From the NCBI GenBank assembly GCA_023078555.1, contig CM041197.1:5229810-5293809 (forward strand): a DNA stretch of 64,000 bases, read 5' to 3'. The position numbers and the translations under genes are program-made. The stretch is from Ulva prolifera. Its lineage: Eukaryota; Chlorophyta; Ulvophyceae; Ulvales; Ulvaceae. Below are positions 33,306 through 59,400 of this stretch, piece after piece; position 1 is the first letter of the stretch; each line of letters begins with the position of its first letter. The notes beneath the pieces were generated by a model. That model was not told the DNA's origin. It made no database searches and saw nothing but the letters and a program-made list of their open reading frames with translations.

Positions 33306-36300
33306 CTAGCCGTCCCTGGTGCCGTCTCCAGACCCTGGCTCCTCTGCCCGAGGCTCCAGCAGGTCAGGGTCCGGGAACCCCTGCGCCACCAGGTCCTCAG
33401 TGATCAGCTCATAGTCATCCTCATCATTCATCAAGTCCTCAAGAAACTTCATTGTGCCGTCCCAGGATGGCACGTGCGGCATCCCGGCGCCAGAGTTGAA
33501 CGGCGACGGCGGCCGCGGCGGCGAATTCTGAGTTCCGGAAGGCACATCCAACACGTGGCCGCGTGCAGTGGCCTGGGAGAAGTGCTCATAAACGGTTTCA
33601 GGTGGTCGCTGTTGCACACTCACACGCGGGGAGTCCGGCGGCATTCCGAGCCACGGAGCTGGACACGGCAACGCTTCAAACTCCGGCCGCAGATAAGGAA
33701 TGTCCGGGGCAAATGTGCCGTTGCCACTCTGGCTACCTGGGCTGCCCGTGTTCTGATGGCCGTGGACAACCGGCGCACGAACCGCACGGTAGGCATGCTG
33801 CGCACGCTGTGCGGAAGCCATGGAGGCGTCGGCGCATGCCCTCGGCGGCGGATCGCTGTGCACACGGGACAGCACCCTGCTGTGCTGTGCTGCGCTGTGC
33901 AGGCCGTGGCCTGTGTGGTCGGCTTCAGATGTCAGGTATGTAGGGGGCCACGCTGACAGGGACTGCGACAGGGGTGCGGGCCCATGCATGCTTGGCGGCG
34001 GTGGGCCTGCGCCCGGAGGTAGCAGTAGCGCTGGGGCGGGCCCTGCCGTTGCGTGGGCAGGGTGCATCATCTGCAGAGAGCTCTGCGAAGGAGCAGGCGG
34101 AGACGAGAGCTTGCCATACAGTCGGATTAGTGTCGCTCGATGTGAGAGCGGAAGGGGCGCCACAGCGCCGGGAGCGTCCGATGGCACCTGCAGCCGCTGT
34201 TTGCTCATCGAGGTCCACATCGGGCCGCGGCCTTTGACTGTAGCTAGCCGGGCTACAAACACTCGTTGTTTGACAGTCACATGAATTCCCCTCACAGCGT
34301 AACACGATGGCTGAGCAACTGCGAGCAGACGAACAACTCCGTGTCCGCCTGAGCTATACTTATGACATAAGCTTTCATCGTGATACACCATAAAGTGTAA
34401 CAGGCCCGTGTCGGAGAAGAGGCTTGCCTGGAGTAGTGTGCCTTCCTCATGCGTGCCTGGGCCAGCAACACCGCCCGTGGGCATGTCCGGGGAGGCCTCG
34501 TACGCAGCTGCAGCGCAGTCTTGTTTCACCAAGGCCGGAGCTCCAGGGCTAGCTAGCGTTTGAGGGCCGTCCAATGGCAGCCGTGTCGGCTCCCACTGCG
34601 GCGGGAGCGGCTGGCCCCACCCGGCAACCTCCTCCGGCAGGGGCTGCAGTGCGTCTCCCAGTGCACTCCACCGCTGCAGCTCCGCCTGCAGCAAGCACCA
34701 GTGTGACGCAACATGACACACCGGGTATTCAATATGGTATTATATCAACATATGCACCTAGGTAGCTCAGAGGATTAATATTAACCCTCCCTGAGGCAGC
34801 GCAGGTGTGCAGCATCATCTCTGAGCACGCGTCTCACGCATCGGCTGCAGCGTGCATGCGGACTAATCCATACGTATGACGTACGTGCGATCTGCCGGCT
34901 GGTACGATTTCCTTCCCCGCCTCAGACAGATTTTTGAGTATATTGCAAAAGAGTCAACGGGAGAAGACAAACACCACAAAAGAATCTCGTCTGAAACAAT
35001 AGCAACATACTTTTAATGTCACCTAGGGTATACAAGCACGCATGATGACAGCTGCAGCATGCCATCGTGTGCGTGCACAGCCTATTGCTGCGTGGTGAGA
35101 CGACGATGGTCATGGCGTTTGTCCTACTATCGCGTGTGTGGTCGTCATCTAAACAGGCCACATGGGGTGTCCACAGGTTTGTCGGATTTGACGCTGCTCG
35201 AACCGTGCGAACATCCGCAGTACAACCTCCACTACCACTCGAGCTAGCAGCGCATGTACTGTATTTGTGGCCATCGCATGCCGTCACACGTCCGATATTT
35301 ACCTCAATAGTGCGTGCTGCATGCATGTAGTACATGCATCACACCGGGACGCACCTGCAGCAGCGCCTTCAGGCACTCAACCTCCTGCACGGAAAACTCG
35401 AAAGTGATGCGCCGCTGGCTTTTGGGTGCCGAGTCGGCCGCGACGACAACGCCATCCAGCTCCGCGGCCGCCCGCTTCAGCCGCACCGGCGCGCTGCGCT
35501 GCCTGCTGATCGTGCGGCGCAGCCGGCCCTGCAGGTCGCGCGCTCTGCCGCCCATCTCTGGCAGGCTGCGGCTGTGGTGGCCCTCCATGTGCGCCCTCTC
35601 GGCGCCATGCACGTCCATGTCAGCATCCATGGGGCCCTGGGCACCGCCGGCCGGGCCGGGGCAGCCGCCTGGGTGTGGGCCTGCCGCACAGCACACCTCG
35701 TGATCATGCATGAGATGCATGCATTAGCAAAGCGCAGGATGCGGTGTAGGTTGCATATGGACAGCAGAAAGCAGAAGTCTGTGTGACTGGTGGAACGAGA
35801 GGCATGATGTACATGGCAATGCATGAATGCCATGCATTTCGCCCCAGATGTTGGCTGAGCACGCCCGTGCGGCGCTTCCGGCCGGTCAATGCTATTCCAC
35901 GTGAAGCGGACCTCCTCTCCTCACCTTTTTTTATGTCGGCACTTATCTTCCAGAAGCAACAGGTGTGTACACAACAGGATTCATGGGAGTTCACTGATGA
36001 GCAGATCCGCTAGCTATAGTCTAGACATTGTCATGGCAGCTTGATCAGGTGTGTGGAGCGGCATGTACATGGCTCTACACCTGCAGGACGTGACAGCGTG
36101 GGTTTGTCTGCTGCCACACCATGATCTGTCGTGGCTACAGGTGCGATCGCCGCCGTTAGTTCTGTCGCCCCCGCAGCCACTCTCTCCGGGCGGACTTCCG
36201 CGCCGGCTCGAGCACGCTGCGCGCTGACCGGCGGAACGCCAGCTTCAGGATCATCTCCAATGTCCGCCGCCGCATGAATACATATGCCCTCTGCTGCAGC

Positions 36301-38465
36301 AGTGTGTGGGCTACCCCGCAGCTCGCCCGTGCTAATGGCCTCACTCGCCGGCAGCTCCAGCTGTTGCAGCTCGCGCTCGAATCGCACATCGCCGGGCAGC
36401 GGTATATCCTCATCGGAGGGCTGCTCCCACCGTGCATGCTCCACCTGCTGAGCCTGCTGCTGTTGCTCGTCGGAGACTGGAGAGGGAGGCGCAGCGGCGG
36501 CCGCGGCTGCGATCGACTGTGCGTGGCGCTCGTAGAAGTCGTGCATTTGCAGCATCGTCTCCAGCTCGAGTGTCGGGAGGGCGGACAAGCCGTCAGGATG
36601 GTGCTGGATGCGAAGCAGGAATGCCGCAGAGAGGCTTGCCGCCACGATGGTGACAGAGATTGCGTGCTTGGGGTCGTCTATGTCGCACAGCGCGCCAGGT
36701 AGCTGCAGCGGCGCTTGCGCGGGGTCGGAATGCCACCGCCCGATGGGGGGCATGGTCCGTGGGAATGTCACGGATCCACTCAGGGTGAACCTCTCGGCGG
36801 CGGCCACGCGCGGGAACAGTGTCCTCACCAGAACCCTGAAGCTATCGGCAGTGTCCTCGGTCATCTTCACCTGGTACTCGTTCTTCGGCGTCGTGCTTGT
36901 CGCTTTCCGATGCGGGAAGAACGCATCTGCAGCACATGCCTCTGTCTCGACAAATACTAAAGTACGGCCCCGCACCGCGCCCATCGGACCCGTGCAACAC
37001 ATCACACGGCTGCGTGCACACTGTTGGCATCGCAGCTGCAGCCCAGCAAGGATTGATCGCCCGATTGCGCAGTCGACCACGGCCTATGCACTTGCCACAG
37101 AGATGCTGGACAGCCGTACACGGTGATTGCTGCAGCGCTTCTGCTATGCTGCCAAACACAGCGTGGATGAAGCTGTGGAAGACTGTCCCGGGAGGGCACT
37201 TGAGGCAGTGCGTGAGGGCCGCCAGCAGCACCGGCATGCCCGTCGTCTTCCCGATGCCTGTGCTCCCGTACTGCCGCGAAGATCTGGGCAGCCCCTCGGG
37301 CCCCCTGCACCGCGTCCGCCATGCTTGTGCAGCCCCGGCTTGTGTTGAAGTGACGGCATGGGGGAGGGAGGAAGGTCCAGCGCCTAGCAATTGCGTACAG
37401 CATGGGGACACAGCAGACCCGGGCCACAGCCGCCAGGTCATATGCATGCATGATGAGCGCTGGGAGCGTGGCACGCCCCCACTCCCACTGCCGCCGTCCG
37501 CGGCCGGGACAAAAACGAATGCACACACCCACTCCCGCGCGCATAAGCGCTCACGTGCACACACTCACACACAGGCACGCCCGGCGAGCCTGTCTTTGTC
37601 AGTTCAGCGCCCAGGAAGGAACACCTCGCAAACACAACGTCATTCGCTCAACGGCGGGTGTGCTGTCAAAGCCCGAGAGGCAGGTAGTACGTCATGCATG
37701 CCTGATATGGGCCTGGGGTTTCGAGGCCGGGGCCAAGGTAATTGTGTTTGTCAGCGAGGCTACGGGTGCATCCGGTGGATGTATGCGTGGCATGCAGCCG
37801 CTCTTCGCCCGCGGCAGCGGCCGCAGCCTGCCTCCAGATCACAGCAATAGTGGCTGCCCGCACACGCAAAACAAGCCGAACAGTTGTCGATGTATACGGC
37901 TTTCGCTGGCCTTCTGAAGAACAAATTATTTGCTGGCATGTGTACGTGTGCACAATCATAGGTCCGTCCCACTGGTAGGTCCGAGCCTGCGCGCCGGGAC
38001 TGTAGTGCGTCTACAGCTCGCAGTGCTACACGGGCAAGGTTGGGCCGGCAGGTAGCACCACCAGGTCAGCGCCAGCGCACAGGCACAGGAACACCAACGC
38101 CACCGCCATGGCGGTGGCCCGCCAACAGCTTGCAGTGTCACTGGATATGTGGTGCCGAGGAAGCAGTCCTGTCACACGTGCAGCGTTGCACAGCGTCGAA
38201 TATGACATGATTATGCCCTCTTCACGTCGTTTTCCGAACACGTGGATCTCTCTCGCTCGGACAGTCCGACGACGGTGAGAGTGTGGAATGCGGTGAAGTG
38301 TGGATGCAAGCACAGGCCAGCTAGTCTAGCATACCTGTACTTGACGACAGCTTTCCTGACGGACTCGAAGATTTTAGGGCCCAGCAGTGTTTGCATTGCA
38401 TCTCTGGCCTCCACAACCGCGCGCACTGTGGCTCGCGATCGTCTCGAGCCCTCGGCCATCATCAT
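33306..38465 (-). CDS. Family member P1: uncharacterised protein, six exons
   Basis: Exons 38465-38335, 37304-37120, 36926-36081, 35680-35355, 34685-34428 and 34187-33306 are in phase and give about 875 residues. Exon 1 (MMMAEGSRRSR) has ARDAMQTLLGPKIFESVRK. Exon 3 starts AFFPHRKA and has KHAISVTIVAASLSAAFLLR, then poly-Ala and Gln-rich tracts. Exon 4 is basic, ending in a helical stretch (VQEVECLKALLQ) that continues into exon 5 (AELQRWSALGDAL). Exon 6 is Pro/Ser-rich and ends in an acidic hydrophobic tail (FLEDLMNDEDDYELITEDL), like a transcription activation region, but no DNA-binding domain is recognised. The donor after 34428 is GC (CAG|GCAAGC) unless a GT 39 bases downstream is used. 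P2 and P3 share the phases of introns 1 and 2 and several motifs. The GSTGIGKT in exon 2 is not conserved in them, so it is probably not a P-loop. Confidence 0.65.
37665..37690 (-). repeat. Dispersed TTGTAACACA-type repeat, partial
   Basis: The reverse complement reads GTACTACCTGCC, then CGGGCTTTGAC. It matches the middle of the full copies and lies in intron 1 of P1, in the gene's own orientation. Confidence 0.4.
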
Positions 38466-40402
38466 CTGCTACATGCTTCCTGGCATGTACAAAAAATGTT
38501 ATGACATTGATGGTGCCTGATGATCTTAGTATCCTGGATATCTGAGGCTGTTCAATGCGTTTGGCCCACAGGACCGCCCCGGATTCGACCATGGCATGGC
38601 CAAAGCGCAAGCTGTGGATGCTGTCATTCACAAGAGCCGTATACCTGTCACCTGTTGCAGTGGGAGACAATTGTTGCGTACCAGATTACAGCATAGCTGG
38701 CCTGCTTTGGCCTGCTGTTCCCAGGAGTCCACATCGCAGGCCATACCAAGGCGATTGGCTGTGCTGTGATCGACCTTGTTTGTAGAAATTTGTGTGAGGC
38801 ACACTGACTGAACTCAGATGGACAGGACAAGGTACGGTGTCAGGCCAGCATCCAGGGCTGCCCCGACTCAACTCCCTCCCTACTGCTCCCTCCAGCGGAT
38901 GGGGAATGAGAAGAATTGCTGTTCTCATACCTTCAGTATGGTGTCTCGCTTGCGTGAGCTTCGAGAACTTCCAGGCCTGCTCTGCTCTCAGCAGCCAACA
39001 GCAATTACAAGACAAGCAAGTTGGATTACCTCGGTTGAGGTAACATCTCTGCAATTTGGGTGGCAGATTAATTCGGAATTCCAACATGAAAGATCAGAGC
39101 ATGTGCGGGCACATGCGCATGTGGCATGGCTGGCCATGAACGTGGTTAGTCTGGGACACAGGCAGACAACACAGGCAGACAAACTGCTCAGCTCTGGTTG
39201 CATTTTGATACAATATTGGTTTGGGTGGGACGGGTAGTGGCAAGCAAACGGCGCACTCACTGAGGCGAACAGGCCAATGAGGCAAGACAAGCCATTGCCA
39301 GATGGTGCAGTTGCAGGTGCTGAAGGTGAGTTGTCAACCGACTGCAGAGCTTTTTTTTTGGTTTGAAATCAATGTCAAACAGGAATGAATACAGGCAAAA
39401 AAAGTTCTGCACTGTCTGCTTGTGATAGTTGTTCTTGTCAAGTTGTGGCCGCGGCATACGCCGCCGGATTGTGGAATCGTTGTCGAATCTCGCACGACAG
39501 TGGATCTGAAGGTGGTTCTGAAGGTGGTCTATCAACAGGCACGCCAGGGCAGGTGCCTTCAGTACCACACCCTTGAACGTGTGTCTATTAAGGCACCGCA
39601 GGTCCCTTATCGACAGTATTCGATGACACAAATTACGTCAGGATCTTCGCTTCACCTTGGCTATAGCGTTCCTGATGGTCTTTATGGGTGCTGCAGGTGC
39701 AGGTACAGATCTGGGCTCTGTGCATGATCCAATCCAAATCAAACCATGCAGAGACGTGCCGAGGCTCCAGATCATCACGCTGATCATGCAGCCTAAGCCG
39801 CGGCGCACTGCTTCGTCTCAAAGACAGTTGCTTCCTAGACGAAATCCAGGATACAGCATGTGCCGTGGCGATGCCACAAAGACGATTCTACGTCCGCAAC
39901 AGGACGGAAGCGAACGGTCATTGTCTGTCTGCATCATGCATATCAGAATTGCAGCAATCTTTGCAAAGCAATGTCAGGGACGTCGTGTCGTACACAAACA
40001 CATTATCGAGGTGGCACGGCATGTGAACTGCTGTCCAGTTCCGTCACGGCCTGATCAACACTCCCTACGGGGTGATTGGTCTTGCATTGTACATTGAAAC
40101 TGATGCCTGTCATATCATTTGCGACCCCAGCGCAGCCCACGGCATGCACATGAACTAGCGATGTGGCTAGAGGTAGATCCAACTGCTCCAGGGGCTGTGC
40201 AAGCAGCTGCGAGAGGATATCTGCCTGCCACGACAAACAAAAGCACTTTTTGAAGGACCAGACGTTCATGTAAGATGATGGTTCTTATCGTACACCACAC
40301 GCATCGAGTATTCAGTGCAGCGTTGCCTGATGATTGCATGATTGCCTGATGCCATCACAGCTAGCATTTTGCTCGCGCTTGAAGCCGGGTGGATTGAGAT
40401 GA

Positions 40403-40513
40403 TTAGGCATTATCATTGGAGAGTGTTCGTGCAAGTCCTACGGCCTGCGGCACGGTTGCCCGACGCACGGGCCGCGAGGATCTCCAGGCGGATGTGAAAA
40501 TGGCTGACTGCAT
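40403..40513 (-). other. Short frame resembling a mitochondrial presequence
   Basis: An ATG-started frame of 36 codons (MQSAIFTSAWRSSRPVRRAT and on to RTLSNDN) has the Arg/Ser/Ala composition and the RTLS end of a mitochondrial targeting peptide. No donor site and no following exon were found, so it may be chance or a stranded first exon. Confidence 0.2.
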
Positions 40514-43107
40514 CGCTATCGTGTTGGAACTGTCGAAAGTATCAATTGATGTGGTCCTCACGCGTACAGGTTTGCAAAGGTGATCTCGGTGCAGGAACGG
40601 TGTTGCAGCTCGGCAGAGGGATCGTGCGTCATGTGGCACTTCAGACTGTTCAGTATCACTTACAAATTGCGATGATCACTGGACTGCCCTGCTTGCAAGC
40701 AATATTGAGTGCCCGGTGGCAGTGGTGCTTGCTGGCATTTTTCACCAATTCTTATGTCAGAACGACGGTCTTTGTGTCTGTGTAGTCAACACAAGCAGCT
40801 AAATCTTCCACGGTGGATCTAACAAACATCTAACGCTGATGTCTATGTTTGGAACCTGCTCAGGAAAACCTTGACTGGGTTTGTGTTGGGCTGACATGCT
40901 GTGTGCCCCATACTCCTGCAGCATCCTGAACTTGCATGTGTCAATGCCCCTGCACCTTTGGTCAGGGTCGATACCTCTGCAGCTTTGGTCGACATGAGGC
41001 ACTCCAAGTCTGATGATGATGGGTTACAGCTGCCAGTGTTCCCCTGCCTGGATCCATGGCTGTGGTCAAACAAGTGAAGCTGTGCCGTCATGCCTCTGAA
41101 CCAACCCCAAAAATTCCATGAACACGTGCTGGGCCAGGAAGCTGCATGCCGCAGTGTGCTGAGGTGGCAAGCTGCATACAAGCATGAGGCATAGGAAACA
41201 GCATTACACGGTGACTGCTGCACACATGTCATGGCCCCTGCTGTCAGGCCACAGCTGCGCCATCACAAGTCACTCACCACAACACTTCTCTAAAGCCATA
41301 AGATTCAGTTACACGTGGATACAATGGACCAATGTAGGATGAAACAAGTCTGCACTTTCGGTATACAAGCCGATGGGCACCAATTTTATTCGGAACGCGG
41401 TCAGATAGCGTACAAGGCTTGTGGCTTGAGAACAGCATGTGCTGTCGGTGACACCAGTAGCCACATCGCACAGGCAGAATGCTCGGGAGACAAATGTCAT
41501 ACGAGTTGGCGGCGCCAATGCCGTGGTGAGAGTTTTCAGCTTCTCCTGGCGTTTATTTTCAACTGTACAGGTGATGCTGTGCTGGATGTTGCGCGTAGAA
41601 GCTAGTTGCAGCTCCTTGGAAGTGTTGTATTCTTGCACAGAAGGCATGCCTCATTTCGTTCGCCAGACTGCAGCCTGTTGTAGCGCTAGCGTTGAAGCTG
41701 TAGAAGACTTGATGGCAGGGACGTCTTGGTCGACACCACAGCATGACGTGGCGGAACAGGCACGTAGCAAGCAAGGACAAGTGCCACAGACATGCAAGAA
41801 GGTTATAACTTCGATTGATAGCAACCTCGGTGATACGGCATATGACATGCACAGAGCTTCCAAGGTGTGAATGTCTGATGCCTTGCATTGTCATGCTCAC
41901 AGTACAGTCAATTTCTTCGCCGTCGACATCCACACAATGATGATGACTGCGTGGAAATGTCCCACATGCTGAGCCAGAATCACTTCCGGTTCCGTTGAGT
42001 TGCGGTCATTTGTAAAGCCTGCGATTTCATCACTGGTGCACGTGCTGTGCTGGTAGACACCACGCCCTCTTTGTCGCTCCCCTCCTGTGCTGTTACTCCT
42101 CCTAGGACAGCTGTGCTGCTGTGTCGTAGACAATTGATTAAACATCACAGCAACACGTGCTCACTGAGGATCTGCCGGCATGGTTGTGAGCCTCTGACAT
42201 GTGCAGTGCAGCTAGCGTACAGCATCCGATGAGTCATGTGCTTGCAATTGTGGCATCGGTGACAGCATCCCTGCTGGTTATTCGATATCATGCTGTTCCA
42301 AGGCCTTGCTCTGTTTGTCTGCCTGCCTGCGTCTCCCGAAACCGCGCTGTATGGTGATTTCTCAGTCCGGAATCTGTATCTGTTTTCTGACTGAGCAGCA
42401 CGGCTCCGGAGTCCTGCAAAGGTCAGACAAAGGAGCGAATCTGATTAGCGAATCTGTGCACTGCGACCTTTTATCTATAGGCATGCTTGTGGTGTTGGCA
42501 AATTGGAGCATGAAATTGTTGATCGCATGCAATTCGTCTCCAGCTTTTCTCTAGCTCTGTCACCTGCTTTTGCAAACAGTGCATGTTGGCCCATTGAAGA
42601 AATGCATGCATGCGTTGTTCTCACCGCTACTGCAGATGCCATGTGCCCCATGCCGGCTGGTGCGCAATCAGACAACAGGGTTACAAATTGATCATCAAAT
42701 ATCGATCTTTCAACGACAGGAACCGGGCAATCCTCTGTACGTGCTTGTAGCCGCACGCAACCAAGAGCACGCACCGGTACCCTGCCGTGGTGGTGCCTTG
42801 GACAGAGAATTGCTGAATGCAGGCCAATTAACTAGTTCAAACCCTCTACGTACATGGCACTCGATGCAGCCGTTGCCGGCGCAGCGTCCTGCGAGGGGCG
42901 CTCGCGCCACAGCACGCAGCACGCAGCGTGCAGCATGTGCGTCGTCCCACGCGCTCAACCACACGGCGTGGCCCACAAAACAAACACAATACTAGTAGTA
43001 TAGAGCCGGCGGAGAGGATCATGCATTTGCCAGCTGCAGGCCTGGGCCATGTATAGGCGTTCTACCTCACACAGACCCATCCGGATGGCCTGCACTGACA
43101 CGGTCTC

Positions 43108-43149
43108 ATATTGGGCGAGCATCGCATGCATGCGATGCACCCCCAATAT
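43108..43149. repeat. 42-base near-perfect hairpin
   Basis: ATATTGGG, three bases, then the 20-base palindrome GCATCGCATGCATGCGATGC, then CCCAATAT. The arms pair almost completely. Confidence 0.8.
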
Positions 43150-43489
43150 GCGACAGGTCCCGGACCGTAGACCCAATGCATGACATCCTCCACGGATCCA
43201 GCTCAGCGGCAGTGAGGGAGTGCATATGCATGCGCGGTTGCAGCGCTGTGCTGTGACTGTGAGCACGCACATGCACTCCCGCTTATTCTCTTGATAACCC
43301 CCTCATCCCATGCGCTCTGATTTCCCGTACTCCCTGACTGTTAACCACCCCCTGAGCTCTTCTGCGCGAAAGTTCTGTGCATGTGCATGTGCATGCTGAG
43401 CCTGTAGCTATAGGCAGCACTGCTTCTCGCAGAGCACGCAGCGATTCTGCCAGAATATCTGATATCAGCCATGCACATGTGCATCTCAC

Positions 43490-43795
43490 CCCCGCTCATG
43501 CATGCAGACAGACTCCGCAGCAGCGCGGCGCCCCCCCGTGTACTGTGCAGTAGTAGCCTGCGTATCCAGGCGCCGATGCGCCACACCCTTCCGTATCTGG
43601 CTTGACGCCGCCGGCGTGAGAGGCGCCGCGGACTGCCGGCATGGTGGGCATTGGGTACCCTGCCAGTGGAAGCTTAAGCAACCCGAACGCAAGGCGCGGC
43701 GCCTGCCGCAGCGCCCAAGACGGTGGGCCAAGGACCTCACAATCTGCAGTCGAGTTGTCAAGCGCAGCTGCATCGTCTTCCGCTGAGCCGGTCAC
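43490..43795 (-). other. Possible C-terminal exon related to P2
   Basis: An open stretch reads EDDAAALDNSTADCEV and then a Pro/Leu-rich segment. Its start resembles the acidic start of P3's last exon (DADDSDAAATL), and a 15-base piece (GTTGTCAAGCGCAGC on the plus strand) recurs at about 44599-44613. It may be the last exon of P2 or a duplicated remnant. Confidence 0.25.
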
Positions 43796-44369
43796 ACTCT
43801 AGTCCACAGGCACCTTAAGCGTGCAGATGCTTCTGACCTAACACGGCAATCGCGAGGTCCTCGCGATTGAGCGTCTGGCCGGCATTCACACACCTTCCAT
43901 TCTCACTCACATTCTACCAACTCCATGCATGCCTTGCATGCTTGGTTCATCACAGCGAATGGGCGTCTCCGCGCTCAAGACGGACGCCTGCATGCACTGC
44001 CTGGATCAGACGCAGCTATGATGTCGATGGTACGATAGTATGCACGAAGGTCGCGCTATAGCTATATAGCTATATATGTGCCAAACAACTGGCTGACTGT
44101 GCTGTGCCATAGCTACCGGCAACACGCGCCGGTCTGTGCTGATGCACACATGGAGCTCAATACGCATGGTGAAAAGGGGCAAGCAGATTCACGCTCAGCC
44201 TGCTGCAGGGCCCGCACCGTGCCTGATGCAGCGTATCGTATGCTGGCGGGATACCAGGGTGTGATGGCTCGTGCGCCCAAGGAGCTTGCATCTGAAGGGC
44301 ACCGGCTGGCCCTGGCGGCCCCGGTGGCCACTGCATGCGGCGGACGAAAGTGACCGGGGGGGGCCTGAC

Positions 44370-47300
44370 CCGGAGCATGGACGCCTGCGCAACGAAGCGC
44401 CGTGCCATCGCCGCCCGGCTGCGGAGTGGGTACGTTCATGAATGAGCCCGCGAATTCGTAGTCCTGAGCAGGACACTGCCTTTGCTCTTGAGGGACTGGT
44501 CGATGGCCTGCCACGGGGCACCACTGCGCTGGGCCTGCCGCTGCTTTGCGGAGCGGCGGCAATGTTGGCATTTTGCCGCGGCGCATGTGCTTACTGGAGT
44601 TGTCAAGCGCAGCAGCCATTGCAGGCCCGCTTGTGAAGGTGGCGTGGGGACGCTTCTCAGCACGCGGGTATGCGTGGTGTTCTGGCGTCAAATTTGGTTT
44701 GCCGGCGACGGATGTGCCTGCATCTCGCTGCGGCTGGATGAGGGCTCCATGATCACCCTGGATGTCATCACCATGCATCTGATGCAGTGCAAAAGCTCTC
44801 TGGCAGTGCTTCATGTCGGTGAGAGTGGTCATGCTTGACAGGCCCGACATGGTGCGCTCCGCCGTTCCAGCGCCTGTAGCGTGGCAGCCTGCACCTGTAG
44901 CCATAGCGTGCCAGCCTGCACCTGCACATCGGCACTCCCCCCCATCAGCTGGCTTCCCACACAATCGTCTCGAGACCGGTCGCATTGATAAGCGCAACAA
45001 TGGCCATGAGAGTTGCTGTTGGATGGGGTGCGGTAGCGCGGGCAGTGGAGGGGCGTGCAGGCTCAAGTGGTGTGCACACCGTGGCAATATGGGCAGCACT
45101 CACGCCTGCAGCTGAGGCCATTGTCGTCGGCAGTCCAGCTGGCCATGGGCCAATCACCTTGGCACGGGCCTGAGGGTAGCATGCCCTCCACCTCCAGACG
45201 CAAATCCGGAGGCGGCACGTGCGGATTCTCGATTCCGAAGTGGCCGTAGATCTCGCAGCCTGTCAGCATGCTGTGCATGTGACCGTCCGCCGGCTGCTGA
45301 GAGCGATCGTTGTCTCTGTCCTCAGCGAGCGTCGCATGCATGTTGGAATCAGCCACACATGAAGACACGGCATGGCTTGCAGGGGGGGAAGGCAGGGCAG
45401 GTCCGCCATGCTGTGCGGCATGCTGTACGGCATGCTGTGGCTGTGGGTGATCTTCATGCGTGTTGATATCGATGCCCCGCGCCAGCGGCGGGCGTGCGCC
45501 ATCCCCCGCGCCCGCGCCAGTGCCCCAGCGCAGGCGGTTTTCAACGCGTAGGCGCGGGCAGCTCTCGGTGGTCTTCCGGAGCTTAATCGCCGCCGCAGTG
45601 AGGGCCATCGCGACGCTGATGGAGCCCTCATGCCGGCTGCTCTGGAAGATGCGGCGCCCGGGCGTTTCGATGTCCCCCGGCATCATGATCTGGGCATGCA
45701 TGCGGCGGCCTGCCTGCCGGAGCTGCTCCAGGTGTGCCGGGTACATCATCACCTGCCCATGAGAGTCGTCGGTGAGAGGCGCCCGCAGGAAGTCTGCATG
45801 CACGCGCGCTCATGAGGAACGGCCTGTCATTGTGGCGGCGCACCCGCACGGAACAAAGTCAGGTATGCCGCGACGGCAGCAACTTCCGGTGCTGGATCGG
45901 CGTGCCTGTAGCCCCTAGCAGAGAAAACCGGACGGCAGTCGAAACCTGGTATGTATATACTTCGGTGCAGCGGAAAGGCATACATGCAGGAATGTTGAAT
46001 GGCCAGGATCCTTGTCTGGATGCGTAGACACCGCAGTGCACTGACAGTGCCGAACGGGCCTGCGACTATCTGGAACAAGCCTAGGCCTAGGTGTACGCGT
46101 GTGGCCTAGGTGTGCGCGTGAGAAACGTATGCGCGATGTGGATGTGCGCACTGCGCGCTTGCTCAAAGTGCGCCACAGCATTCCATAAGGCAGCAGTGCC
46201 TGCCGCTCCTGGTAAAGGCTTACTTTGGTCTGCTTGCAGCTGCGCACGCAGGGCGGTCAAGCTGCCGTGCCAGGCGCGGCCCTCCGGCGAATCGGGGTCA
46301 GCCTCCATCAGCTCATGCAGCAGCTGTGTTGCCAGCCGTACAACGGACGAGAGCGACGGCCTGCACGTGCAACCGCACTTTGTATGTAAACGCACTTTGT
46401 ATGTAAACGCCGTCTCGGCCTGCTAGGAACCCATGGCATGCTTCTGCTGTTGCATACGCTTCTGCTGTTGCATACTGCGGAGGGGAGGAGGCGGGAGGAC
46501 ATGTACAGAAGACGCCATGGCGCCATGGATGCATGTGCATATGCCAGGCCACCATGCATGTGGCAGTCCATGCAGCCCAGGTGCTGGGCCAGGTGCTGAT
46601 AGCGATACCAGTGCTGGTACCAGTGCGCATCTTTCAAAGTTGGCACTTTCATGTTCCTCGAGGTTCTGCCTGCCTCACCTTGGTCCTTGAAACGCACAGC
46701 CAGCACCTTGTCAAGCATGCACCACGTTGCAGCATATTGCTCACATTGCATAAAGCCGGCCACTCCGGCTATGTCCTGGTAACACACATCGCATCATTCG
46801 TTCCCAAGCTGGGCCGAGGTCAAGGCATGCCTACGCGTTTTGCGTAATGGCACGTTTCATGCGTACGGTCCCAGGCTCACCTTGACTGTGATGACGACAA
46901 GATAGTCAGTGCGCACCGTCATGCGCCTGTGATCATCGTGTGACGGCAATACAGACGCATCAACTGCGTGCTCGGCGCAGGAATCTGGTCGGCCCATGAC
47001 GGTGCACGTCGCATTATATGCATGCATGCGAAGTATCGCTAGCTGCTGGAACGAGGCGTGGGCGCTGCTGCAGTGTGGCCGTTGATGGGTGTGTGCGGCT
47101 GTTGATTCGGCAGAGATCATTTTGGCGTGTTTGGCTGTTCCTAGCCAATGTTGTGTGAAGAATTCGCTAGCTGCTGCATGCCGCGATCGATCGCGAATTG
47201 TCGGAGCGCACCTCAGATTTATTGCCGTGCATTTGGTGGCGCAAGAGGCCTGCAGTACTAGTCTGCGAAAGTGCGCCGGGGTTTCCAGTAGCTCGATATC

Positions 47301-47411
47301 GGCTCTGACCTCGTGGGCAATGCGTAAGCAATTCCGTGGCGCCTCAGGATGTGCGTTGCAGATGAGGCAACTTGGTCGTTGATAGCATCGACGCTCCCGC
47401 GTCGCGCACAT
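44370..47411 (-). CDS. Family member P2: uncharacterised protein, 3' end unsettled
   Basis: Exons 47411-47212, 46360-46224 and 45793-45158 are phase-consistent; a fourth begins at 44873, and its end is not resolved. Exon 1 (MCATRERRCYQRPSCLIC) has VRADIELLETPAHFRRLVLQ. Exon 2 opens with RPSLSSVVRLATQLLHELME followed by an acidic ADPDSPEG. Exon 3 opens NFLRAPLTDDSH and has RHEGSISVAMALTAAAIKLR, then His/Gln-rich sequence. Exon 4 has CQRAFALHQMHGDDIQ, matching CQKAF in P3. The phases of introns 1 and 2 (2, then 1) equal those of P1 and P3. The C-terminus may lie near 44400 (a stretch with QDYEFAGSFMNVP) or include the exon-like piece at 43.5-43.8 kb. Function is unknown. A cytosolic or nuclear protein is likely, since no signal or membrane segment is clear. 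Confidence 0.55.
46663..46698 (+). repeat. Dispersed TTGTAACACA-type repeat, diverged
   Basis: TTCTGCCTGCCTCACCTTGG, then TCCTTGAAACGCACA. It is in intron 1 of P2, antisense to it. Confidence 0.45.
46755..46788 (+). repeat. Dispersed TTGTAACACA-type repeat
   Basis: GCCGGCCACTCCGGCTATG, then TCCTGGTAACACACA. It is close to the copy at 32294 and 57 bases after another copy, in intron 1 of P2. Confidence 0.55.
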
Positions 47412-48499
47412 ATGTCAAATCTGTTTGAATTCACATAAACCTGGCCAGGATTTGAGTAAAATAGTGGAGGCCCGAAGGGCCAACTGCACCTGGCAATGCT
47501 CCGCGCCAAGGTGTTTGTATCTCGAGATACCCCGATCGACAGCCGTGGTTTGCAATTGGAGCCGACGATCGAGTCGCTCATGCATGTACGCCATGACCCT
47601 GGCCAACAGCGGATCTGCATACCTGTCGCAGTTCCATTTCGGACCCTGCCTGCACCTGGTAGAATGACACACGGAAACCTCTGGCAGCTGCTCTCTGCTG
47701 CAGTGTGTGTTACCATCCATGCTGATCTATGCTGTGGGCAGTTCAGTGGCATGCACTCGTGTTCATATTCATTAAACTTGTACAACGTGATAACGAATGC
47801 ATTCTCATGAGCATGTGTTTGAAAGACCACTCAGACAAGATTCTCTTGCGGACCAGCTTCCACAAACACCTCAACACTGCAGCAGCATACATACACACGT
47901 ACACGCGATCACGGGCATAGAGTTTTGGATGTTCCTGCTTGCTCAAATTCTTGCATGCCTTCACGAAGCATGCGGGGGCTTCTGTGCAAATGTGGCCGTT
48001 GCAATTGCATGTATCGGGGGATACAGAGCAGTTCTAGTGGTGGGCAAAAGCCTTCACATGTCAGGTGTGATGTGTGGCTGTGATCACCACAGCCGCAGCC
48101 AGGGTCAGCTCTAGCCGCAGCCAGAGTCAGCTCTTGGGATTCCACCTGGCAACGCTCGCGAGTCAGTTCTTAGGATTCTTAATGCCTGCAAACACAGTCG
48201 TGCTTGTGATTTTGATGGTACTACACCTCCATGTGGTGGTGATGCTGGGGTTTTCCGGGTGTTGCAATTTGCTGTCCCCTCCCACTGGTGTGCCCATCAA
48301 GCTCAAGTACTAGCTAGTGCTATAGTGCCTTAAGGCTTGATCAATTGATCAAGGCTTGTAGGCCTGCAGAACGGGGCAGCTGCTTGGGAACTGCATGTTC
48401 AAATATGTCTCGAGGTGCATGACACCTGACGCCTCAATTTGCAATCGAGTCAATACCACCCTGAATTGTATGCTGTTGGTACGGACAGGGGATACATGG

Positions 48500-49109
48500 G
48501 CATCAATGGACTCAACCTGTGCCCAGACGCCGGGTTGCGGCCATGGAGCCAGGCTCCATCCACTGAGGCTGGCTCAGCAGCTGATTCTGTAGCCGCAGGC
48601 GATCGTTGCAAACCTACCTCGTTCGCAGAAAGCCTGCATCTTCGAAGAAGTGGCACACCGCGTTGCCCCGGTGCACAGTGAGCTGGCCACAGCTGGGGGT
48701 TGTGGTGGTGTGCATAGCTACGCAGAGGTCTTTGCTGCACGTCTGCACTGACTGTTCCCGCATTGGACGCCCGACCACGTAGCCACGTAGCCACGCGTGG
48801 CCACGGTGCTCACGGTGCTCAAACACATCCAGGGGAGAGCATCCTGCATGCTGTGACTAGAGGTGGCTGGCGTTGGGTACCCTGATCTGCAGGGATCCGG
48901 AGATGCGAGAGAGCTTCTGTGTATTTGACGAGACCTCTGGCGTCCACCCAGGAGATGGCAGCTTGATACATAGATTCCTGGATCCTGCGACAGGCACACT
49001 GCAGCTTAGCGCCTTCTGCACGGGTTGAACGTGTGTCCACGAACGGTTTTTCCGCTGTCTCCTTGAAGTACGGCAGCTGCGATTCAAGTAGCCCACAGTC
49101 TTGCCGCAT
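48500..49109 (-). CDS. Weakly supported coding exons, unrecognised
   Basis: An ATG-started frame at 49109 reads MRQDCGLLESQLPYFKETAE, then a helical stretch (CRRIQESMYQAAISWVDARG). Downstream, two short pieces fit together: one ending RRCRLSANE before a GTAGGT donor near 48617, and one reading NQLLSQPQWMEPGSMAATRR from a TACAG acceptor to a GTTGAG donor near 48508. The composition is protein-like, but no family is recognised and the junctions are not all settled. Confidence 0.25.
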
Positions 49110-51329
49110 TCCGTATACCTACGTAGGTGAGGAGCAGGGCGACCGGCACCACACCGTCCTTTGCTGCACCATACGTGCAGAGCTGCAAGTCACCGATCCG
49201 AGTGCGCCACTTCACTTCAGCTGACACAAGCGCCATGAGCTGCTCGGACAGATTAGCCGAAGGTCTTATACCTTTACAGTGGATAGGTGCTCTGACCTGT
49301 GCGCTGGCTGGAGCTCATAGGCGATCGCACCTTAATTCGGAAGGTGAGCCGTGTGACGCTGCCTCTGGTCTGCCGCGACCCTCCGCGAAACCATGTGGAT
49401 GCGTGCGTATGTGCGTGCATGCCGCATCTTGGAAGCCTTGATCAACAAGTCTGCCGTGGTTTGCTGAGAAATGTTATCGTGCCGTCGTGACGCGGGCGCA
49501 GCTGGTTGTAATCCGCGCAGCGGTTGCAGACGCAGCGAAGCCTTCTCCGAATGCAATATTCATAGTCAAGGCAGATTTCAACGCACACTGAGTCTGCTCA
49601 GAGTTTGTTCCTGGATGTCTGTGCTTCTGCACACAGCGGTTGCAAACCATGCGCTGAGCTGTGCATGGCTCGAGCCGCTTCGTTGTCGCCCAGGCGATGA
49701 CCCGAATTGACCCCGCCTATCCTCGTGATGCAGCCACAGTATCCTCTTATGTGATGGGTGTCTAGCAGCCGCATGGGTCCTTCCCTCTGTGCTGTTCGGC
49801 TGGTCCTGAGGTTGCATCTGAGCGTCACTTCGCAGAGGTGCAGCATGGTAGACGCGTCCGGGATGAATGAGCGTGACGCCATGGCTCAGAGAGACATTTG
49901 AGCCATGTCATCACGCCATCACCAGCACCTGGGATTCAGCTGTGGACCTGGTAGTCTGGTTCTGTATAGTCTGACCATCTACTTACAGCGCAGACTCAAT
50001 ATAAGATCTGAATGACATATGATTATCTAAACTTTCTGTGCGCTTCCTCCCTGGCTTGGTCTGCAGGCCCCAGCAGACTCAGCCATGCTATTTGGGAGAT
50101 ATGATGGCACTGTTGACACACAGCATGTGATCACAGACAGGTGTTAGTGAGCTTGTCGCTATGATTTATTGTTGCAGAACATGTTCCACCTGCAAGCAAG
50201 CCCATGCCATGATGCAGATCAACACACATGCCATTGCCCAGCTGCAGGCAACTGCCAGTGATGTGTGCTTTCATCCTGTCACTGTGCCGAAAGTTTGCAT
50301 CAGTCGTTCAAAGATATGCTGCTGCAGGCAGGCCAATGCTCTGGCAAGAGTGATCGCACCATCCCAGCCCAGGTCACGACATGACCAGGCAAATCTGCCC
50401 TTCTGCCTTTCCTGTGCCTCCTAGCAATCACAGCTATAGTCACGAAACGCACAAAGGATCATTCCTTCGCAGGAGATGTGAGATGGGCGAGTGGTCATTG
50501 CAAGCTGCGAGGTGGGAGACAAATTGGGGCTGCGTACAACGCGTGGTGCTTCCACAACGCAAATCTTTCACCATCTGCACTTGTTCTTACCAATCGGATA
50601 GATGCGGTGCGTAGCGCGACCACGAGCACTGCTCTGGATCACTGTTGTGGAGAACTCGACAGCTCTGATGTGGCAGCCAGAGCCAAGTGCTAGTTAGCAT
50701 ACACCTTGTGGCAACCTGAGCACGCACCAATCCAATAGGTTTTGTAGACTACCCATCCGCAGACTCCGTCTACCAACGCCAGGCCACTTGGCAAGATGCA
50801 GCACCTGTGGATTTAATGCATGCTGCGGGTGCAACATGCCTCCGACATTTGACTGTGGCGTATCCGCTGGGCACTGTATGTGCCGTGGCACGATGCCTTG
50901 TTTACGATGCCTTGTTCTGGACTGTGGATCTGTAGAGATCTAGCTGGACGTTGCCCTCATTTATGCTGCCCTCATTTATGCGGCCCAACATCAGATGAAT
51001 TTGTGTGGCATCACATATTACGAGAAATCGAACCAGCCGTGCGTGACGACCTTGCTTAGCACAGGAGGAGGCCCTGTGATTTGCGTTCGAGTGTCTGAGG
51101 GGGTTTCCAGGGAGTTCACCCCATCGCGATCTGGTCCCGTCCCCTCAGGATATGGCTAAGAAAATTCACATGTACCTTTACAGTAAGTTTACTTTACCCA
51201 CTGAGTCATGCACACTATGTCCAAAACATGAGCGCGGTCACAGAATGATGCCAGGCATACATTTCAGGCCTAGGCTCCGAGTCCACGGCAGAGGGCAAGC
51301 CCCAGCATATCGCCTGGGCCTCAAATGAA

Positions 51330-51348
51330 CCCCCCCCCCCCCCCCCCC
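51330..51348. repeat. 19-base C run between short direct repeats
   Basis: A run of 19 C bases is flanked by GGGCCTCA on both sides (about 51317 and 51348). Confidence 0.9.
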
Positions 51349-51649
51349 GGGCCTCAGGACGTGTAGCAATCACCGCCGTATGTACTATACTCGAGTATAG
51401 AGCTCTCAGCTTTCTGTCACAGGGCCCTTAAGCTTGTTGTGCAAGCGCAGTGGCATCCACATGAGCTGCGCGGTTGCTACATACATAGCTGGGCGAAACC
51501 GGCGAAAGCTTCACGGCCGCGGCGTCATCATCACCTCCCACAGCGGCGCTGACTGCGCGGTCGCCAGCAGCTCAACTTGGCCAAAAACGAACACTCGCTT
51601 TTCAATTGTGCCTGGCATTAAGCTTGCGCTGCGGAAAACATTTGTCCGA

Positions 51650-54600
51650 CTAGGAAGCGAGCAGCATGGCCAGCTGCTCGACCTCGTCACCACTGACCTT
51701 GTGTGCCGAAACTGGGCTCCCACTGGCAAGGGGCAGCGGCGCCGTGCCTGCATCGGGTGGCGCTGCGTGCTCATGCACTGCTCGCGGCGGTTGCAACGCG
51801 CGGAGCGTCGCCGCTGCATCCGAGTCGTCCGCATCCTGCAGAAGTGTGCAGAGTGAGCGTGCAGAGCCTTGCGGCCGTAGATAGTGTCCGCATCATGATG
51901 TGGTGCATTGGTGTGGATGATGGCGCTTGCAAATGTGAATAAGTGCGTCTAGACTCTATGCCTCGGCACCGTACGCCATCAGCATCAGCATGATACAGTC
52001 ACAACTCAGATCTCCGAGTCAGAACTGATAGACAAGGTCGAGGGGCGTGATGGCCGCTAGTCGACGTGCCATGTTACACTGAAACCCACGACTTCGTTTG
52101 TGGGCCTGGTCCTCCATAGCGGTAATGCCCGTGCGCGGTCGGCGGGGCCTGAACGGGGCAGCACCTGCGGAAAGGGTGCCTCGGACATGTGTTTCCCGCC
52201 CCCGTAGACACGCCTGATTTCCATGCGCATGCACTCCAGCTGGGCCTCCAGGTCATAGATGTGTTTAGCTGCAGCCTCCAGCACTCCCGCGTAATCTTCG
52301 ACCCAGTCCCGGAACGCCTTCTGGCAACAGCAAGCCCCGGCGCCACCTGCGTGGCCGGGGGCTGTGCCGTGATTGTTCGCGGATGGGACGTGCGCTTCTG
52401 CGTCGTTCGAGAGGAGGCTCGCGCTTGCATCTGCAGGAGTCTGCTGGTCGGGTCCTGCACGCGTCTGTGCACTGCCGGTGTGCTGCAGCGGCAGCAGAAG
52501 GCAGAAGGAAGCCTTCATGAGGACAGTAGGAAATCAAATTGTTGCATGCGCACTGGTACTGGTGCATCATGGCAGTATGCACCTCGCGTTTGATAACGTG
52601 GGGAAACTCACCGTTGACGCACGCGTTGCACAAAGTCTCATGGTGCACATTGGACTCCAAAGGGCCGAAGGTCTAGATCAGTCCGCCCAGCTTGGCAACA
52701 AATGCGTTGAGCTGAATCAGTGATGCAAGCAGTTGGCACACCAGGACCCGCGTCATGATCAGCATGTTGCGATTGCATGTCCCGCTCCTGCACGCCTCCG
52801 TGCCCTTCGATGCTCATACCCATGTAACCAGGGCTGCCGGGCAGCAGGGGGCTGGTCTCGCTCCCACACCCGTGCTTGCATATGCGATCAAACTCGTCCG
52901 CGTCAGGGGCCGGAACATGCATGCCGCTGATGCTGCCCCCTGCTCCAGTCGCCAGACGCTGCATCAGGTCGGCCGCCGGCTGCAGAACAGCGGCGACCGC
53001 TGTGGCCGTATGGTTCACCGGGTCCTCGACACAGTTTTGGCCATGGGGTGGCGGTGCAGGACCCTCGGCCACTGCCTCTTCAGGACCCTCGGCCACTGCC
53101 TCTTCAGAACCCTCGGCAACTACCTCTTCGGGAACCTCGGCCACTGCCTCTTCAGGACCCTCGGCCACTGCCTCTTCAGGACCCTCGGCCACTGCCTCTT
53201 CAGGACCTTCGTCCACTGTCAATGCCTCTTCCAGCAACAGCGGCGTAAGAACGCATGCATCGCCGTCTGCGCCAGGCTGGTGGCCGTAGTGGCGAACGAG
53301 AAACATGCTGGAAAGAATCGCAATCACCATGCTGATGCTGCGTGCATGCCGGCCACTGGAGATGTGGCCGATGGTGTCGGCAGCGAGCGCGCGCAGCTGT
53401 GCCGCGGTGACGTCGCCATACGATTCCATGTCTTCAATGGCGGGCCAGGCAGCTCCCGACGGCAGTGTGTGGCATGCTTCGAGGTCGCCGTGCATTGCTT
53501 TCACGCCCATCATGAAGCGGTCGCCCGGGCGTGTGTCTGTGTCTCCCTTCAGCTGATACTTTGGCATGATTGGTGGCAGCAGGAAAGCTGCACATGCATG
53601 AGCAGTACACAGCCATTGCAACTGGTATATCTCACTGACGTTACAGTTGGTAGCGGCTCCGTAAGGCCCCGTAAGCATCATGTTTCGTAGGAACGTGCAG
53701 GGACTGGCTTGGGTCGGCGACCCCTACGCAGCCCTGTAGCCACCACAAGTTGATGCACCAAGTACACATGACGCCACCGACCTACTACGGCAGGCACGGC
53801 ATTTGCCGGTGCCATGTCGGCACCGTATCGACAAGACCAATTGCATGTGCTAGCACATATCAGCCCTGCTCGCACAGGCGGTCGGACTGTCTGGTAGGCA
53901 GGCGCAGTAATTCTACTAATGAATTCAAAAGTAGTGAATTGAAAGCGACACCTGAGTCGCGGCCGAGGCGGGTCTCGAGGCGGCCCAGCAGGACTCCCAG
54001 GAACTCCCTCTCGGCGCTGCCGTCAGCACCCGCAAACACGTGGTCACGTGCCGCGACCACCAGGCGCATCGTCCAGACCCATGCTTTGAGAGGCGCTCCG
54101 TCGTCGTCGTGGCCGTAGGCACGGGTCCCGCCGTCCACCTCTCCAGCCGCCGGCGCCACCGCCACGACCAGTTGATCCTGGGGTCTGCAGGGCCCGGACG
54201 CTGTTTTGAGATCTTGATCATGCACGCTCGCTGTCAGTGCTAGTGGTGGTACTGCCATGGCAACATCAATTGCAATGAACATCAAGTGCATGTTCGCTGT
54301 TGTTACAGGTCAAGAAGAGAGACTGTGCGAAAACTACGTTCAACTATTGACTTTTGCAGTCACAGGTTTAGGTTGTGTTCACACTGTTGGCAACAACTTG
54401 AAGGCCCCTTTAGAGATCTCACTGTGACGATTGAGCATCCACACTTATAAGGCTCACACATGTACATGTGTGTGGTTGCACACACGGCTCTGAGATCAGG
54501 AGGCCCCCGTGATTGGATCACTGATGGCAGACAGTGGGACATATCTGCTCAACTTGAAGCTCGATTGGATCGGATAAAGCTTTCTATAGCTAGAATCAGG

Positions 54601-54933
54601 CCCTGGGCCACTGGCTATGACAGCAGGGCACATCCAAGTTGAGCTGCTGGACCGCATGCATATGGCTGCTTGTGTGGAAAGGGCCAGAACTGCTCTCTGG
54701 AGGTGCTCTCAGAGCACAGACTCTCTCAGTGGAGCGGACAGAAGCAGGAGATGCGCCACATGCATGCTGGCACAAGCATGCGCCATTTAGCGGGCTCAGA
54801 CAAACAGTGCTCGAGCGCAGGCGCACCTGAGCTCCTGCAACACGGCGAGGAGTCTGTCGAAGAAGTCGTGGCGCTGAATGCGTTTGACGTCGTTCCTGAA
54901 CTGCTTGCAGAAGTCCACAGCAAAGCGGGTCAT
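51650..54933 (-). CDS. Family member P3: uncharacterised protein with octapeptide repeats
   Basis: Exons 54933-54827, 54184-53952, 53587-52820, 52454-52165 (a later acceptor at 52430 is also in phase) and 51835-51650 give 527 residues. Exon 1 starts at an ATG (MTRFAVDFCKQF) and has FRNDVKRIQRHDFFDRL. Exon 2 begins RPQDQLVVAVAPAAGEVDGG and ends in a Leu-rich helix (LGVLLGRLETRL). Exon 3 opens AFLLPPIMPKYQLKGDTD, has RHARSISMVIAILSSMFLVR, then seven units of EEAVAEGP. Exon 4 has CQKAFRDWVEDYAGVLEA and a coiled coil (HIYDLEAQLECMRMEIRR). Exon 5 starts DADDSDAAATLRAL and ends EVEQLAMLLAS. The 20-residue SIS segment is hydrophobic enough to be a membrane helix but is flanked by Arg. No known domain was recognised. 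It is downstream of exportin-4 on the same strand. Confidence 0.65.
53059..53226 (-). repeat. Seven 24-base units coding for EEAVAEGP
   Basis: An in-frame array inside exon 3 of P3. Units differ by a few substitutions (for example EEVVAEGS and EEAVAEVP), and the last is more diverged. P1 and P2 lack it. Confidence 0.85.
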
Positions 54934-56406: not shown

Positions 56407-59400
56407 CTACTTGCGGTGAATGGCCCCCCGCAGCAGCCCGACAAACTCGGCGAATGCGGCCTCAAACGCCCGCATCGGCGCGCCGCGGTCGGCCGCGGCG
56501 GCGCGCAGCTGCGCCACCGCCGCCGCAGCCGCCGCCTGCAGCTCCGTCGTCCATGCATCAGGCGGCAGCAGCTGCGAGACGGTGGCGCCGAATGCATCCG
56601 GCGCGGTGGCTAGCAGCGGGCGCAGCGCCTCGGCGGCCGCGGTGAGCACGTCCGCCGGGCGGAAGTGATGGAGAATCGACAGCACGGCGGCCATGATGTG
56701 TGGCACGAGTGGCTTGGAATCTGCACAGCATGACTACGCCGCTGTTTCACGGCGTCCGAGAAAGCCCAGGATCGCGCCCTGGGCATGCACTGAACCCTGC
56801 CGCGGCAGCTGCTGCACTGTTGCTGCTTTGTTGATGGCTCAGCTGACGGCAAGAGTAGTGCGAACTTTGCTGAAGCGAAAAGCCGCGAAGGCCAATCCGA
56901 ACAGCAGCAGCTTACACCAGCAACACCGCTCCGCAGAACCAATTCGTGCCATACCATATTGTGCAGCATTTTGAGGAATAGTGGTCCATCATTATCGTGG
57001 TCTCAACATGCACTGGTGACACAATATGCCAGCTGTGGGCCAGCAGAAGCACATGCGGCGAGAAGCCGACCGCGGGCAGGGACCAGCGGGTTCACACAAG
57101 GGGGCCGCACCAGCTGCGGTCCTGTTGCCGAGGCCCGGCATCCCGGCATCCACTTCTTCCTGGTGCTGCCCCGCAAGCTCCCCCAGCGCGCGCAGCACGA
57201 GGTTCACGGTGTGAACGCTCGGCTGGCGCAGGCCCCACAGCAGGACGTCGAGGAGCGCCGCGAAGTGGTCCGGCGGCAGCCGCAGCACGCGCGCAGCGTG
57301 CACCTCGCAGATGCGCAGCACGGCCAGCGCGCACGCGTCGGCGACGGCGGGGTAGCCCAGCACAGCACGCGGCACGGCCGTCAGCACAGCATGGCAGCCC
57401 TGGAAGATGCTCTGCACTGCGGTCGCTGCCGTCTGGGCTGGCGGCGGAGCAGGTAGAACTCCAGACGATCTGTGAAGGGCGTCGGGCGATGACCCACACA
57501 TATGCATACGGCCCATGCATACGGCCGACGAAAGCTCCTCCCGGCGCATGTGTGTGAGCTGAGCGTGCAAGCAGTCGGTGCGCACAGAGCCCACGGCACA
57601 GGTAGTCAAGCAACCGTGGCAGAGCTGCTGCTGTCGGGCGCCAGGGGCACCAGGAACAGCAGCAGAACGATAAAATATGCAGAGTGAATCGGGCAAGGGG
57701 CCGGGCACAGCTATCGCTGATGGCGCGATGTTTAATGCATGTACAGGGAATGGGCCCGTGCAGCAATGCAGGTACCACGGACCCGCCCCTGTGCATGCGG
57801 GGTGGCCCAGCTGCCTGCGACTATGGCATGCATGGGGGGTGGCCCAGCTGCCTGCGACTATGGCATGCATGGGGTGGGGGCATGCCTCGAGGACGACGTC
57901 GGACGCGACGTGGTCGAGCAGCTCGGTGAGAAAGAGCAGCAGCTCGAAGGCGGCCTCGAAGAGGGCCGCGCGCTCCGCCTCCGCCTCCTCCACCGCCGCT
58001 GCCGCCTGCGCACCGCGCTCTGCCGCGGCCGCGCGCTGTGACGCCGAAAAGTCCGTCAGCAGCTGCAGGCTCCACCGCGCCAGCTCCTGCAAACGCACGT
58101 GCTGACGTGTGGGTGCTACGGCAGGAACCATCAGGCGGGGACGCATGCCGTGCATGCTGTGCAAACAAATGATCACGAGAGCAGCAGCGGCATTCAAAAG
58201 TAGGGCTGGCGCATGCTGCAGAAGCACATGAGCACAGCCCTCCTGTCTGACAAGAAATGCCTGCTTTCAGTGGGGAACAAAGTTTCAGTGGTGGTGGATG
58301 TGTCCTGGACTTCATAAAGGATCATGGCTAGCAGCAGTGCAGATGGTTGAACTCCACAGGGGACAGCCCTGAGGCATCCCCGAGGCATACAAGTTGTTGT
58401 CTGTTGCTAGCATGTTGTGTGACCTGTCCAATGCAGCAAATTACATCCTGATATTCACCAGTCTATCTTTGTGTGCTGCCAGCATACGGCTAGTGCATTT
58501 ATAGCAATTCCTGTCCAACTACAGCAGCAGCCAGCGTCGCAGTGGTAGCAGCAGGCACAGCAGGCGGAGCGGGGCGGCACCTCGGCGGCGTCATGGTGGA
58601 GCGTGCCGGAGTGCGAGCCCGCGAGCGCCGTCGCGAGCTGCAGCAGGAGCTGCTGCAGCAGGGGCTGCGCCGCAAAGAGGCGGCGCACGTGCAGCAGCGC
58701 GGGCAGGCACGGCATGACCGCCGCGTACACGGCGCAGGCCGCCGCGAGGTTCGCGCCCTCCACCGCCCCCCGCAGCCGCTCCAGCGCGATCGCCATCTTC
58801 TCCACCTGCGCCGCCATGCCCAGCCGTCACTGTGTGCCGATGCCTGCGGCCACTGAGTCACTCTGGATGCGGACAACCTTGTGGTTGGGCCATGTCCTCA
58901 AGAGCCCCCGCGTGTGCACCAAGAGGGCCCGCCTGTGCACCAAGAGCCCCCGCGTGTGCACCAAGAGGGCTCGCCTGTGCACCAAGAGCCCCCGCGTGTG
59001 CACCAAGAGGGCCCGCCTGTGCGCTAAGACCTGCCTATGCACACGCCGCTCGAAGATGTTGCGGAGGTGCTTGAGCACTACGTTGGTTGTTTGTCGCCTC
59101 GTATACGAGGAGAACGAACAGGAAATCTCTCAGGACGGTACACATGCACAGTGAATTCGCACTGTTGGGCTGGCCGTGGCCATACATGCATGCAGTGCAT
59201 GTGCATGAGCATCATACCCCGGCTCCCCCACTGAAACAGGATGCGAGACACAAACAGCCCCGGCGAAGTAGCCATAACTGCGGACACAGATTAGCGGAGG
59301 GGAGCGCACGTTCGGGGCCAGCGCAGCGGCGGCGCGAGCCTTGCCGCCGTCCGCGGCCGCCTCGTACTGCGCGACCTCGGCCAGGGTCGACTGCAGGAGG

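Follow-up and report, generated by a model that had tools for sequence, protein, structure and literature searches.

Can three neighbouring genes whose predicted proteins look very different, here called P1, P2 and P3, nevertheless be copies of one ancestor? The window, a stretch of 64,000 nucleotides (C2:5229810-5293809) of the 88.9-Mb, 44-contig genome of Ulva prolifera, holds them as three loci, all on the minus strand, just as a preliminary description had stated, extending from the P1 stop, which ends at 33306, to the P3 ATG, which starts at 54933. That description took the three to share intron phases, to descend from a single ancestor by tandem spread, and to fit no named family.

The gene models are listed in Table 1 together with the neighbouring frames that Pfam recognises. 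None of the six minus-strand frames past 56 kb has a Pfam match, and Rfam gives no match at gathering score. The window also carries a 30-bp repeat unit in 7.4 copies (96% match) at 30831-31053, next to the aldo/keto reductase frames, and a 42-bp (2 x 21) repeat in 3.1 copies (95% match) at 58899-59029. Across the whole window TGCATGCA-based palindromes exceed the dinucleotide expectation: TGCATGCA itself occurs 36 times vs 7.6 expected, and CATGCATG 53 times vs 7.1. The LHC domain, PF00504, has 38 matches in the genome, and one of these frames matches the chlorophyll a-b binding proteins of the PDB, which marks the genome as one of the green lineage.

Table 1. Predicted genes and other features of the locus, in window positions; GC1-3 is the GC content at codon positions 1, 2 and 3.
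Feature	Position	Strand	Basis or remark
Protein kinase frame	4646-7420		Pfam
SecY frames	9566-10072 and 10351-10755		Pfam
Carnosine methyltransferase frames	14830-15414 and 16807-17253		Pfam
PGP phosphatase frame	23915-24646		Pfam
Aldo/keto reductase frames	29100-29477 and 30318-30809		Pfam
P1 gene model	38465-33306	-	five exons, 948 aa
P1 exon 1, encodes a helix, phase-2 donor	38335-38465	-	GC1-3 0.58/0.47/0.67
P1 exon 2, acceptor gcccag/ATC (exon from ATC), donor phase 1	37120-37283	-	aligns with P3 exon 2
P1 exon 3, core followed by low-complexity sequence, tentative 3' end	36081-36926	-	P3 alignment
P1 exon 4, start tentative	35355-35680	-	open frame, GC1-3 0.77/0.54/0.86
P1 exon 5 up to the stop codon, encodes an acidic C-terminus, further intron possible inside	33306-34685	-	codon-position composition
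P2 gene model	47411-44113	-	four exons, 611 aa
P2 exon 1, as implied by the preliminary motif, doubtful	47212-47411	-	little coding periodicity
P2 exon 2	46224-46360	-	GC1-3 0.78/0.49/0.76; match to P1+P3
P2 exon 3, with a shorter core than P1 or P3, tentative 3' end	45104-45793	-	GC1-3 0.69/0.52/0.75; block match
P2 exon 4, contains CQRAF, doubtful	44113-44921	-	without coding periodicity
P3 gene model	54933-51650	-	five exons, 519 aa
P3 exon 1, encodes a helix, phase-2 donor	54827-54933	-	GC1-3 0.57/0.26/0.86
P3 exon 2, donor phase 1	53952-54184	-	P1 alignment, codon-position composition
P3 exon 3, core followed by the region of 24-bp repeats, tentative 3' end	52820-53587	-	P1 alignment
24-bp tandem repeat, 6.8 copies, EEAVAEGP-type in P3 translation	53057-53218	-	
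P3 exon 4, CQKAF and by-eye leucine-rich helix, start tentative	52165-52430	-	codon-position composition
P3 exon 5 to stop	51650-51835	-	codon-position composition

All of these gene models are predictions, with GT-AG introns and internal stops absent, for which we picked the splice sites by hand from the sequence. With the sites so chosen the proposed exon layout is recovered: in each of P1, P2 and P3 the first intron falls in phase 2 and the second in phase 1, exon 2 begins with RP in P2 and P3 (RS in P1), and exon 3 begins with YAFF, NFL and AFL in the three genes. Going beyond the preliminary claims, a phase-1 intron 3 can be placed in P1, P2 and P3, and the series of phases 2, 1, 1, 0 in both P1 and P3. 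Since the sites were chosen knowing what to look for, the agreement of phases alone is weak evidence. Codon-position composition is independent of such prior knowledge, and GC is lowest at codon position 2 in all ten exons of P1 and P3 and in exons 2 and 3 of P2. As a control, 130 overlapping stop-free intergenic windows gave a mean GC3-GC2 difference of 0.013 (sd 0.09), with 3% reaching 0.2; in exons 3 and 5 of P1 and P3 the difference falls between -0.18 and 0.18, with a size of 0.11-0.18, which lies within two sd of these windows.

Comparison of the predicted proteins gives good support to the view that P1 and P3 are tandem paralogs of one ancestor. Over exons 2-3 they align with a local score of 80, where shuffled sequences average 30 (z = 10) and none of 1000 shuffles does as well. 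The two exons 3 are reciprocal best matches with a score of 67, the best unrelated frames among 3,944 open frames taken from 164 kb reaching 49 and 55; identity amounts to 27 of 95 aligned residues in exon 3 and 8 of 35 in exon 2. When matched in place, exon 2 ranks 3 of 128,076, and exon 1 only 789 of 186,885. For exon 3 the sense frame gives z = 8.6 and the other five frames between -0.4 and 5.6, the top one being antisense. A z-score by itself is not decisive, because the best picks of a genome-wide search include unrelated frames: in our single-protein queries such frames reached 48-86 in local score and 5-12 in z, resembling none of the genes but the query. The P1-P3 pair was not picked from the genome; the case is carried by nearness, reciprocity and exon order. 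These comparisons support well a homology between the predicted exon 2-3 regions of P1 and P3, with which exon 1 and the intron places are compatible.

Not all of the motifs by which the family had been described fare equally well. The H..S(I/V)... block ending in Arg is present as 19 ungapped residues in P1, P2 and P3. In the six-frame open frames of 164 kb, H..S[IV] followed by 13 residues and R occurs four times, three of them being P1, P2 and P3; with a hydrophobic interior added it occurs in those three only, the pattern having been fitted to them. The exon-1 pattern R.D..(I/L)....F..(L/V), on the other hand, matches none of the three genes as written, while a relaxed version fitted to P1-P3 picks out 12 of 3,944 frames, namely the three and nine others. 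The CQ(K/R)AF motif that was to link P2 with P3 is near chance, its score of 26 being reached in 14 of 200 shuffles, and a third copy (CQRAF) sits in an unrelated plus-strand frame.

What, then, of P2? We consider it a probable, more distant member of the family, judging from short predicted segments. Its 26-residue H..S(I/V)..R segment takes rank 1 among 178,996 windows against P1+P3, with a score of 58 where the next is 40. Its exon 2 ranks 18 of 128,075 against P1+P3 (110 of 128,076 against P3 alone), and, when anchored at the exon 2/3 junction, gives p = 0.0027 against P1 and p = 0.0007 against P3 in 20,000 shuffles; the exon-1 helix ranks 263 of 198,716 against P1+P3. The predicted P2 gene thus retains the exon-3 block and the exon-2 match in the correct order. 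It could be argued instead that only P1 and P3 are true tandem paralogs, and that P2 is either unrelated or else a decayed copy, and its likeness comes from a chance helix and chosen splice sites. We regard this as unlikely, though far from negligible. Similarity above shuffled controls, which had been expected among all three, stands firm for P1-P3 and is weaker for the other pairs, whose local scores were matched in 40 of 1000 (P1-P2) and 24 of 1000 (P2-P3) shuffles. A P1+P3 profile run over 164 kb scores the P2 exon 3 frame at no more than 2.4 bits (E = 24) and leaves the exon 2 frame out of its list, and in a whole-exon-3 comparison P2 ranks 24 and 41 among 3,944 frames. P2 exon 1 is nearly flat in GC1-3 (0.59/0.53/0.59) and exon 4 (0.66/0.63/0.61) does not have its minimum at the second position, indicating little or no coding periodicity; among 32 phase-2 exon-1 candidates upstream, the one bearing the motif takes 12th place when scores are anchored at the junction and 2nd place in local score. 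Against these points stand the anchored ranks of the block and of exon 2, the correct exon order and strand, and the coding periodicity of exons 2-3. The claim of a single ancestor is well supported for P1 and P3 and moderately for P2, for which the anchored ranks speak and against which the profile and the whole-exon ranks speak.

Are there further members, or relatives elsewhere? The same P1+P3 profile revealed no clear fourth copy in 164 kb, the best other frames having E of 0.05 and 0.08. In the whole genome, one part-of-gene query at E 0.001 found its own gene alone, and three such queries at E 10 found their own gene and seven matches with E no lower than 0.12. We tried these seven as members and rejected them, since none has the H..S(I/V) block and their z to the other two genes is 1.5 at most. 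A query with P3 exons 4-5 returned itself and four matches, none better than E 0.24. P3 was missed by the P1 query and P1 by the P3 query, and a mixed P1/P3 query found both of these and missed P2, so that three members must be read as a lower bound. The earlier statement that no named family fits holds for Pfam, NCBIfam, PDB sequences and, in the case of P1 and P3, PHROGs: a Pfam search with 12 pieces of the P1-P3 proteins stayed empty up to E = 10, NCBIfam gave no family match, PHROGs a single match at E = 0.41, and the PDB none below E = 2.

A tandem, fast-changing array that matches no library might owe its origin to a mobile or viral element and not to duplication of a host gene. We find such an origin very improbable: viral contigs gave 12 and 6 pattern matches and prokaryote genomes another 40, none of which was confirmed as a relative, the PHROGs result is as weak as just described, and introns and coding periodicity are present. 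A Walker A-like GSTGIGKT pattern occurs once, in P1 exon 2 (37244-37267, minus strand), and one could accordingly take the same paralogs to carry an ATP-binding or enzymatic module; the pattern is absent from P2 and P3 and lies upstream of the part in which P1 and P3 align, and, no Pfam match being found either, we think it scarcely credible that the module is of this kind.

The idea that P1-P3 are a diverged cluster of SAND-domain (VARL/RegA-like) transcription regulators is attractive because volvocine regA-like genes also cluster in tandem and show little conservation beyond their domain, in the passages of PMC10137558 that deal with them. By eye, moreover, VTAAQLRALAA...RHARSISMV in P3 resembles TPxEFExxAG...KxWKxSIR of SAND. 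However, hmmscan of P1-P3 gave no SAND match, and P1-P3 are not among the four SAND matches in the genome, which lie on C5 and C6 and two of which are above the cut-off. A five-segment SAND profile did not place P1-P3 among its 2,401 rows, and hhalign gave a probability of 0.03%. Pairwise z between P1-P3 and three genome SAND segments is -0.7 to 1.5, while among those three it is 14.6-21.0, and the SAND Trp is missing from P1, P2 and P3. A SAND domain with a K.WK motif was thus sought in P1-P3 by hmmscan, profile, hhalign and pairwise scores and rejected, which makes a SAND cluster a highly improbable explanation. As for the genome's own SAND matches, three share a strand and a span of about 4 kb at C6:6383466-6387587, one of them over the Pfam cut-off, and one open frame of this group has, by eye, a PHD-like Cys/His stretch; the fourth is the one on C5.

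The preliminary description had read the fast divergence and repeat growth as relaxed or diversifying selection. For the core this reading finds no support: in exon 3, P1-P3 identity at codon positions 1-3 is 0.421, 0.495 and 0.411, position 2 being the best conserved, where composition predicts 0.275, 0.257 and 0.313, and the predicted exon 2-3 core looks constrained rather than relaxed. Between the tails of P1 and P2, and between those of P1 and P3, no alignment stands out (46 and 189 of 300 shuffles as good), and the similarity of the P2-P3 tails is marginal (6 of 300); the predicted P1 tail has nothing measurable in common with that of P2 or P3. By eye the P1 C-terminus is acidic, with many leucine and aromatic residues. 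P3, an acidic protein with a pI of 4.7, contains an octapeptide repeat of 6.8 copies and, in exon 4, what looks by eye like a leucine-rich helix.

Returning to common descent, we tentatively favour, at something short of an even chance, the reading that P1 and P3, probably together with P2, arose long ago as tandem duplicates and act as regulators or scaffolds through a helical module and tails. Given the tandem order on one strand, the copies would have arisen by unequal crossing-over. Exons 1-3 may form a mostly alpha-helical folded module that binds a partner, and the long disordered tails would make contacts of their own for each copy, through an acidic, leucine/aromatic-rich tail in P1 and an acidic octapeptide repeat and likely coiled coil in P3. 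Such proteins could act as regulators of transcription or chromatin in the nucleus, or as scaffolds. Because a known domain is absent, the regulator role is read from composition by eye; a nuclear role in transcription or chromatin is accordingly a guess, more apt to fail than to hold, and the paralogy of P1 and P3 is much firmer. It is likewise doubtful, if conceivable, that exons 1-3 constitute an undescribed domain of tandem algal regulators, the domain being kept while the tails change by repeat growth. All told, the array is most likely a small tandem family that diverges fast, its members being perhaps nuclear regulators. If confirmed, it would add one more small unnamed gene family of green algae and a case in which exon layout outlasts most of the protein sequence, so that exon phases could aid in finding further members; the family by itself leaves long-standing open questions untouched.

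How does such a family compare with known systems? Lineage-restricted tandem families are clustered on the same strand, have diverged tails with repeat growth and lack library matches, and nothing yet sets P1-P3 apart from such families in general. With the KIX proteins of Mediator MED15 they have long disordered tails in common, and P3 exon 1 resembles by eye helix 1 of a plant KIX sequence, which Pfam recognises as KIX_2. In a ranked comparison with KIX, P3 exon 1 comes 30th of 178,998, and none of the three exon-2 pieces is placed higher than 9,748 of 128,077. KIX_2 was found neither in four exon pieces of P1-P3 nor in the genome, the latter in an exon-by-exon search that could miss a split domain, and we rejected this candidate. 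In the volvocine algae the VARL/regA cluster comprises, in the account of it in PMC10137558, 4-5 tandem paralogs with one short domain, conserved introns and very low conservation outside the domain. That cluster is defined by its VARL (SAND) domain, which was looked for in P1-P3 and not found. What they do have in common with it is that, in a green alga, paralogs stand in tandem and show low conservation outside one domain, a trait that is not specific to VARL/SAND.
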